The notes beneath the pieces were generated by a model. It ran no database searches and was not told the origin of the DNA. It saw nothing but the letters and a program-made list of their open reading frames with translations. The position numbers were made by a program, and so were the translations under genes. A stretch of 64,000 nt of DNA from Limnoglobus roseus (GTDB lineage: Bacteria > Planctomycetota > Planctomycetia > Gemmatales > Gemmataceae): the NCBI RefSeq assembly GCF_008254045.1, contig NZ_CP042425.1:5642001-5706000 (forward strand). The letters are read 5' to 3'. Of this stretch, positions 56,007 to 59,367 are shown one piece after another. Positions within the stretch are counted from its first letter, which is position 1; every line of letters starts with the position of its first letter.

Positions 56007-56082
56007 CGTCCCTCGGGCAAAATGCCTGAATCGGGCGGCAACTTGACAAATCCCGGTCGGTCGCGTATCGAATAAGGTAGTA

Positions 56083-56216
56083 GAAGCCGAGTTCCCGGAT
56101 CACCATCGGGAAACGGGGGACCCAATTGGGTCGGGCGCAAGGCCGACCTGGGGGCGAACGCGGGCAACCGCGAGGGTACGTTCAAGCCCTAGCCCGTCAG
56201 CTAACCTCGTAGGCGA
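56083..56216 (+). ncRNA. c-di-AMP riboswitch aptamer (ydaO/yuaA type)
   Basis: The sequence carries the conserved hallmarks of the ydaO-yuaA class: 5' GCCGAG, GGGAAACGGGGGACCCA (56108-56124), a purine-rich GGGCGCAAG loop, and the 3' block CCCGTCAGCTAACCTCGTAG (56193-56212). The 5' GCC (56086-56088) and 3' GGC (56212-56214) can close the P1 helix. The motif order and spacing agree with the aptamer pattern I recall for Rfam RF00379. It is on the plus strand, about 257 nt before the small 70-residue membrane protein, with nothing else between. Confidence 0.88.
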
Positions 56217-56237
56217 GCCGCGGCATGGTGCCGCGGC
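56217..56237 (+). promoter_or_regulatory. Candidate expression-platform hairpin directly after the aptamer
   Basis: Perfect 9-bp GC stem (56217-56225 with 56229-56237), 3-nt loop, starting in the base after the aptamer. An overlapping CTCG/CGAG hairpin (56205-56216) could compete with P1. Only a short T-rich stretch follows. Confidence 0.5.
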
Positions 56238-56379
56238 GGATTTGAACGGGCAATCCCGTCCCCGCGCCGACGCGCACTTGCCCGCACTCTTTTCCCGTTA
56301 ACCCCATGATCGCCGCACGAATTCCGTGTGCGTTTCCTTCCGATCGTCGATTCTTCCGGCCGCCTTCCTCCGTTCTGTC

Positions 56380-56400
56380 ACCGCCGTAGCGGTTTTGTCT
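56380..56400 (+). terminator. Candidate leader terminator
   Basis: Hairpin ACCGC/GCGGT (56380-56384 with 56389-56393) followed by TTTTGTCTT. It lies in the leader between the c-di-AMP aptamer and the 70-residue gene and could be the ligand-controlled terminator. The stem is only 5 bp. Confidence 0.4.
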
Positions 56401-56472
56401 TCTGCATACCGTTACGCCGCCCCCGCCGTTGTGAGGGCGCCGCGGGAACCCACGCCCTGAGGGAGAATTCCG

Positions 56473-56685
56473 ATGAGCTTGCGCCACGTTATGAGTGCCG
56501 TGTTGCTCTTTGCGGCGTCCGCCGGGTGGGCATTCGCCCCGCTGCCCACGGGGTCTTCTGACCGCCCCGCAGTTCTGCGACAACTGACCGACCGCCTCGG
56601 CGTGCTCCCGCCCGTTTGTGTCTTGCTCGGCGTCGCCGCATTGCTCGCCGGAATGCACAGCCGCCCCGACGGGGAAGCCTCTTGA
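56473..56685 (+). CDS. 70-residue secreted or membrane protein under a c-di-AMP riboswitch
   Basis: 70 residues, no recognised family. The N-terminal 22 residues look like a signal peptide (HVMSAVLLFAASAGWAFA), then a short polar part, and a second hydrophobic stretch (about 47-61, VCVLLGVAALLAG) near the C-terminus. It could be a two-helix membrane protein or a small exported one with a C-terminal anchor. GGGAGAA at 56461-56467 precedes the ATG. The leader, which contains a ydaO-type riboswitch, argues that its expression follows c-di-AMP level, a signal usually tied to osmotic balance and cell-wall state. Confidence 0.72.
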   Translation: MSLRHVMSAVLLFAASAGWAFAPLPTGSSDRPAVLRQLTDRLGVLPPVCVLLGVAALLAGMHSRPDGEAS

Positions 56686-56770: not shown

Positions 56771-56844
56771 GGGCGCTTAGCTCAGTTGGCTAGAGTACTA
56801 CATTGACATTGTAGGGGTCACTGGTTCAAATCCAGTAGCGCCCA
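56771..56844 (+). tRNA. tRNA-Val (anticodon GAC)
   Basis: 74-nt cloverleaf: acceptor GGGCGCT/AGCGCCC, D-arm GCTC, anticodon stem CTACA/TGTAG with loop TTGACAT (anticodon GAC), T-arm ACTGG-TTCAAAT-CCAGT, discriminator A. No encoded CCA. Its 3' end is the boundary of a broken integrase, which is consistent with former use as an attachment site. Confidence 0.95.
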
Positions 56845-56897
56845 TTCCTTCTAATTGACCCCGGTTGACACGAGTCACCGGGGTTTGTCTTTTCCTC

Positions 56898-57397
56898 TCA
56901 GTTCCAAGCGATTCCACAACTTTTGTCAAATCCTGTATTATCGGCTTCTGTCTCCGTCGGCTTTTGCACCAAATCTTCACAGCCGTTCGCGGCCTTGTCG
57001 AAATCTCGGTCCACCGTCTGAAGGTAATGATCGAGGGCGACCTTCGGCGTGTGACCGATCCACGATACGACAACGTGAAGCGGGAAGTCTTGAGCCAGGT
57101 CCGATTCGCAGGACGCCCGCATGTTGTGGAACAACCGCGGCCACAACTTCCGCCCGGCCCGACGTATGACCTTCAGGAACTGCGTGCGGAGGTTGGCGTT
57201 GGCCGACCCCTAGGGCGTGTTCGCGGCCGCCCGATAGCCGGTCCCCGTGGCCCGCCCACGACGTACTCTTCGCCCCGGCCTGTCAGCCGGAAGGCTTCCT
57301 CAAGGTATGGCCGCAGTTCCTTGAAGATGGGAATGACCCGGAACGCTTTCCCTTCGAGGTGTTCCGTTTTGGGCGAGGGGACGGCCATGCGGTTCAC
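56898..57397 (-). pseudogene. Broken tyrosine integrase next to tRNA-Val
   Basis: Remnant of a site-specific tyrosine recombinase read in two frames. First part (57397 downward): [29 protein letters not shown] and [14 protein letters not shown] one-base deletion near 57243-57247 shifts the frame; the second part continues [10 protein letters not shown], hits TAG at 57212-57210, then runs [16 protein letters not shown] and LFHNMRASCESDLAQDFPLHVVVSWIGHTPKVALDHYLQ, the C-terminal catalytic region (Arg and His kept). The N-terminal half is missing: a stop codon lies just upstream of 57397. A minus-strand frame reaching into the tRNA (to 56798) ends in the ATGFEPVT-like tail often created by antisense tRNA sequence. 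Confidence 0.88.
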
Positions 57398-58395: not shown

Positions 58396-59367
58396 ATGAA
58401 TCGCAACCGCCGCGCCTTTACGCTGATCGAACTCCTGGTCGTCATCGCCATCATCGCGATCCTGATCGGCCTGCTCCTGCCGGCCGTCCAGAAAGTTCGC
58501 GAGGCCGCCTCCCGGATCAAGTGCACGAACAACCTCAAGCAGCTCGGCCTGGCGTTCCACAACTACGAGAACACGAACGGCAACTTCCACTCGTCGGTCA
58601 ACCGGCAGATCAACACCGGCGACCCGACGCCGACGCAGTTGTCGTACATGTGCTGGCTGCTGCCGTACATCGAGCAGGGGAACGTGCACGTCAACCTGAA
58701 CTACTTCAGCGGGTGGAACAACGACCCGGTCAACACGCCCCTCGGGGCGATCCCGATCAAGATCGACATCTGCCCGTCGACCAGCCCGGAGGTCCGCGTC
58801 GGCCTGTACAACAACGGCGGGAGTAACGTGTTCGCGTACGGGGATTACGTCCCGGTCGAGCGGGTGGACGCGACCGCGCCGGGGGCCGAGGTCACGTTCG
58901 TGGCCGGGTCGAAGTCGCAGGGGTACGGCATCCTGTCGAACATCAACCGGTCGGCGGCCGGGGCGACGGTGTACACCGAGGGCATCTACACCCGGAAGGT
59001 GACCGACGTCACCGACGGCACGGCCAACACGATCCTCCTGGTCGAGGACACCGGCCGGCCGCAGTGGTACAAGGCCGGCAAGGCGTTCAGCAACCCGGAC
59101 ACGAACCCGACCGGCGGCGGGGCGTGGATCCGGCCGAGCGCCAGCGAGATCGCGAGTTTCACCGGCATCTCCTACGACGGCGAGACGGTCCCGGGGCCGT
59201 GCGCCGTGAACTGCTCGAACAACCAGCAGCCGTACTCGCTCCACACCGGCGGGCTGAACCTGCTGTTCGCCGACGGCTCGGTCAAGTTCGTCAACAGCAC
59301 CATTACCGTTCGGACGTTCGCCGCCCTCGTCACGTTCGGCGGCGGCGAAATCTTGGCCGACTACTGA
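58396..59367 (+). CDS. DUF1559 prepilin-like protein
   Basis: 323 residues. Type IV-pilin/pseudopilin N-terminus [34 protein letters not shown] (cleavage motif before FTLIELL) followed by DUF1559, the planctomycete family: [17 protein letters not shown], a variable beta-rich middle and the C-terminal [21 protein letters not shown] stretch. These proteins are exported in a pseudopilin-like way and occur in tens of copies per genome. ATG 58396 is supported by GAAAGGA upstream. A perfect terminator hairpin follows the stop. Confidence 0.95.

Follow-up and report, generated by a model that had tools for sequence, protein, structure and literature searches.

The locus described here lies within a 64,000-nucleotide stretch of the Limnoglobus roseus genome (the window) and consists of an RNA leader followed by a small gene, both on the + strand. 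A cmscan search of the whole window gives a match to the c-di-AMP (ydaO/yuaA) riboswitch aptamer, RF00379, at positions 56075-56230 (+), which covers the model at full length (1-134) and scores 63.3 bits (E 2.5e-12) against a gathering score of 38 bits. This is the Infernal check that an earlier note on this DNA had proposed, and it bears out the ydaO/yuaA-type aptamer recognized there by eye: both conserved blocks quoted at the time, GGGGGACCCA and CCCGTCAGCTAACCTCGTAG, are in place. Elsewhere in the family, RF00379 hits score from about 48 to 71 bits, and since the score of the window aptamer falls among them, the aptamer shows no decay. No second copy occurs in the 9,378,099-base (9.38 Mb) genome. 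The nearest gene downstream on the + strand is a 70-aa open reading frame at 56473-56685 (+), which starts with ATG and is preceded, at a distance of 7 nt, by a Shine-Dalgarno-like AGGGAG (56460-56465, +). A tRNA-Val gene follows at 56771-56844 (+), 85 nt after the small ORF, and neither a transporter gene nor an SPFH gene is found downstream of the aptamer. The aptamer thus stands alone before a tiny gene, as had been noted, and the usual, though not defining, downstream gene for a K+/osmolyte transporter or a cell-wall protein is absent.

The 70-aa ORF has no significant match in Pfam or NCBIfam, in keeping with its earlier assignment to an unknown family. It is the sole gene immediately downstream of the aptamer and encodes a putative small membrane protein, as proposed before, with two hydrophobic segments (Kyte-Doolittle 17-residue means of 1.85 and 2.45); a single-sequence AlphaFold model gives three helices at low confidence (pLDDT 69). 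A homologue of 75 aa that shares its N-terminus with the window ORF is encoded by G443 and G444, two of the three genus mates (42% over residues 5-64, E 2e-6). Because the homologues of these two genomes differ from each other at synonymous codons only (five synonymous versus no non-synonymous differences), the 70-aa ORF is very likely a real gene, judged by this codon comparison. The search for distant homologues returned weak matches, mostly fragments of long ORFs or broken frames. In G443 and G444 the aptamer is absent upstream of the small-gene homologue, and none of the three genus-mate genomes contains an RF00379 match, even with the threshold relaxed to E <= 1. Control of the small gene by the aptamer is therefore not conserved, since the genus mates have the gene without the aptamer.

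The host genome encodes one diadenylate-cyclase (DAC) domain (PF02457, 77.8 bits), within a 314-aa ORF, which makes synthesis of c-di-AMP by the host plausible and supports, as regards synthesis potential, the earlier suggestion of c-di-AMP signalling in this lineage. A DAC domain is likewise present in each of the three genus mates. The DAC-domain protein of the host (L002:1018-1962) contains the DGA motif and reads RHL where RHR is the usual DAC motif.

The architecture of the RNA is supported by comparison with other planctomycete loci. A hairpin loop of the aptamer carries the 5' strand of a pseudoknot, CGTTCAA (56179-56185, +), which is complementary to 56242-56248; the 3' strand, TTGAAC (56242-56247, +), is thus extended by one base in the complementarity with the loop (TTGAACG). 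In a 14-sequence alignment, 95.2% of the cells of this helix are paired and two pairs are changed on both sides. The two strands co-vary across planctomycetes (CTTTCAA/TTGAAAG, CTTCCAA/TTGGAAG, CCTGAA/TTCAGG), and a pseudoknot complementarity score of at least 7 is reached by 69% of planctomycete loci versus 21% of shuffles. The crystallized ydaO sequence is printed in a paper that also mentions a pseudoknot (PMC5393176), and since the pseudoknot position of the window can be read in that sequence as well, the pseudoknot is a known part of the ydaO class. A further hairpin of about 21 nt (56217-56237, +), with two-sided changes in four of five pairs in alignment A5, lies as an insertion between P1 and the 3' strand of the pseudoknot. 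Most loci in the host's family carry such an insertion, versus a much shorter linker in most other planctomycete loci. For the structure as a whole, 97.1% of the cells in the 14-sequence alignment are paired, compared with 33-52% for slid structures, and 30 cells are changed on both sides. Unconstrained folding of the leader gives a structure no stabler than shuffles (z -0.66), which is the expected outcome for a pseudoknotted RNA and makes global folding uninformative here. Compared with the ydaO/yuaA (kimA) switch, the window shares the core blocks, P1, the pseudoknot, the full model length and a score above the cut-off; it differs in the inserted hairpin and in its downstream gene, a small ORF of unknown family. 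By its sequence, the leader at 56075-56283 is a genuine c-di-AMP riboswitch of the ydaO class, and we infer that it binds this ligand. The class is a known one, of which this is a typical representative carrying a lineage-specific insertion; its target is unusual and lineage-limited.

Upstream of the aptamer, a candidate promoter can be read by eye (TTGACA, a 17-nt spacer and TATCGA; 56043-56071, +); a stricter pattern scan did not pick it up, and hexamers resembling TATAAT/TAGAAT stand at the corresponding place in several relatives. Directly 3' of the pseudoknot lies an expression-platform hairpin (56248-56283, +; GGGC..CGTC..GACG..GCCC), in which GGGCAA pairs with TTGCCC and GCACTCTTTT follows; it is a candidate terminator and recurs in some form in most relatives. 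In the 14-sequence alignment, its outer pairs are 100% formed and invariant, and its inner pairs are 92.9% formed. Covariation is silent on the outer pairs because they never vary, and what supports them is their conserved sequence and position. The T-run (GCACTCTTTT) is weak, several relatives have little T at this place, and the hairpin is not among the sites returned by a terminator scan. The earlier note had suggested that two leader hairpins could be the switch; a single one, the conserved hairpin at 56248-56283, fits better. Two hairpins with T after them, at 56314 and 56380, are at chance level (three sites found versus 1.2 +/- 1.1 expected) and were rejected. A linker of about 190 nt separates the platform hairpin from the ATG of the 70-aa ORF. 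Judged by eye, GCGGGCAA (56160-56167) might pair with TTGCCCGC (56278-56285) and could then be an antiterminator. A further possible antiterminator occurs in the leaders of three related loci (L084, L085 and L088), where the aptamer segment GGGCACTTTC has about 10 bases of complementarity with a GAAAGTGCCC-type stretch that lies downstream.

Matches to RF00379 were found in 46 of 392 genomes sampled from the phylum, and in 27 of the 102 genomes of the order. The 34 other aptamer loci of the order (L062-L093, with L079 included) were oriented and their downstream genes classified, and representatives were identified by Pfam. SPFH/Band_7 proteins are the targets at 20 of the 34 loci and APC/KUP/KimA-type transporters at the remaining 14, where a permease lies downstream, in some cases with a Usp domain. 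The SPFH targets take two forms: at 14 loci the aptamer precedes a large SPFH/Band_7 protein (about 710-780 aa), and at six it is followed by a ~90-aa ORF with two transmembrane segments (TM) and then by a ~380-408-aa SPFH protein. In the rest of the phylum, APC/KUP-like, TrkH-like and KimA-like transporters predominate, next to two large SPFH proteins. The labels KUP-, KimA- and TrkH-like are a reading of the sequences; for the two permeases tested, the assignment that Pfam supports is AA_permease_2. The window is the sole locus in the order with neither an SPFH nor a transporter target. Profiles of the small and large SPFH types have no match in its genome, and the genus mates likewise lack both types. 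The idea that an SPFH gene had moved or been displaced elsewhere in the genome was rejected, as neither type was found there. The proposal that the small gene is the conserved target of the aptamer is, as worded, not supported in view of the usual targets of the order and of the genus mates without an aptamer. The earlier note had also said that it would be refuted if homologous sites pointed to another, larger gene as the target: larger targets are indeed found family-wide, but this locus has none. Its detection of the riboswitch was right, and its claim of novelty is too strong. In the literature searched, which leaves many journals outside its coverage, we found no mention of an association of c-di-AMP switches with SPFH proteins and no paper on c-di-AMP riboswitches in planctomycetes.

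We consider it fairly probable that the leader at 56075-56283 is a ydaO-class riboswitch that controls the 70-aa gene, acting as an OFF switch by transcription termination. Binding of c-di-AMP would stabilize P1 and the pseudoknot between the loop and the 3' strand (CGTTCAA with TTGAACG); the platform hairpin, which starts at the next base and is followed by the short T-rich stretch, would then form, and transcription would stop. High c-di-AMP would thus keep the small gene off and falling c-di-AMP would turn it on, which by analogy might occur under K+ limitation. Both the direction of control and the terminator action are inferred. Known ydaO switches turn expression off, usually through termination, as in B. 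subtilis and B. thuringiensis (PMC6488665; PMC9960051), and termination is favoured here by the position of the platform hairpin, which abuts the pseudoknot and excludes the Shine-Dalgarno sequence (56460). The main doubt over termination is the weak T-run, which would also suit a switch that works on translation or RNA stability instead, and the ydaO-type switch of C. glutamicum nlpC apparently acts on translation (PMC9960051). However, the Shine-Dalgarno sequence of the small ORF lies about 175 nt past the conserved hairpin and not within it, and we regard such a mode of action as somewhat unlikely. That the true target is the tRNA-Val gene, reached by read-through transcription, is highly improbable: the gene shares its strand with the aptamer, but it has a promoter-like TTGACG..TATGAA of its own before it (read by eye), and a scan of 18 relative loci with an aptamer found a tRNA at a single one, kilobases distant and on the other strand.

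Two further explanations concern the origin of the arrangement. The aptamer could be an orphaned leader, whose original SPFH or transporter gene was lost in this lineage and behind which the small gene lies by circumstance, with weak or no physiological effect. The targets at all 34 other loci of the order, the lack of both SPFH types in the host and its genus mates, and the fact that these mates keep the small gene and have no aptamer whatever all fit this account. An unused leader would, however, be expected to decay, whereas the aptamer here is intact, as are its pseudoknot and the platform hairpin, with scores like those of relatives that have the usual targets, and the small ORF retains its own Shine-Dalgarno sequence; we consider orphaning unlikely. 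Alternatively, the 70-aa protein might belong, in diverged form, with the ~90-aa two-TM proteins, and the window would then retain the first half of an ancestral operon under c-di-AMP control. This ~90-aa family, with a conserved RQF, occurs in exactly six genomes of the order from three genera, in all six between the aptamer and the SPFH gene and nowhere else in the order (L066, L074, L077, L084, L085, L088), that is, only behind aptamers. The window ORF occupies the same place as the first ORF past the aptamer, is of similar size, has two hydrophobic segments as well, and shows 35% gapped identity to the member in G433, with MSL..LL.AA.AGWA and LRQ common to both. Against common descent, the profile of the ~90-aa family scores the window ORF at 1.4 bits, below its shuffled versions (up to 7), and a profile-profile comparison (hhalign) gives a probability of 1.6%. 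Homology to the SPFH-partner family is accordingly not significant, and we take divergence from it to be improbable.

Returning to the reading of an OFF switch before the 70-aa gene, the role of the small protein might, judging from the targets in relatives, lie in K+/osmotic or membrane-stress adaptation, and the undescribed small envelope effector of the earlier note is a conjecture about it. KdpF is a small membrane protein to which the 70-aa protein can be likened by size, position and putative membrane nature, with no relatedness implied. The kdpFABC switch of B. thuringiensis (PMC6488665) is of the ydaO class and has a platform hairpin after the aptamer, as does the leader here, and its first gene, kdpF, compares with the small putative membrane protein encoded next to the aptamer; the present locus differs in having no kdpABC and a weak T-run. 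With the sister-genera loci of aptamer, ~90-aa two-TM ORF and SPFH gene, the present locus has the aptamer type and a short ORF with two hydrophobic segments in common, but its genome lacks the SPFH gene and the small proteins are not detectably homologous. A c-di-AMP regulon of the family might comprise K+-type transporters, an SPFH scaffold and small two-TM proteins, and it might have shrunk in the window lineage to a lone small membrane protein that carries out the c-di-AMP-controlled envelope or ion response unaided, a picture that we regard as rather doubtful.

Signalling by c-di-AMP has been studied chiefly in Firmicutes and Actinobacteria. The more general point here is the recurrent position of the switch ahead of SPFH proteins in this family, which offers a testable link from a second messenger to membrane organization in bacteria with unusual membranes, and the window locus provides a test case of one gene and 70 residues. 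In the surroundings of the locus, a DUF1559/N-methylation protein, in line with a planctomycete, is encoded at 58396-59364, and tRNA-Val(GAC) is followed, within 56771-57397, by - strand fragments of a tyrosine-integrase-like protein (e.g. LFHNMRASCES..VSWIGHTPKVALDHYLQ, by eye), which suggests an old element integrated at the tRNA gene.
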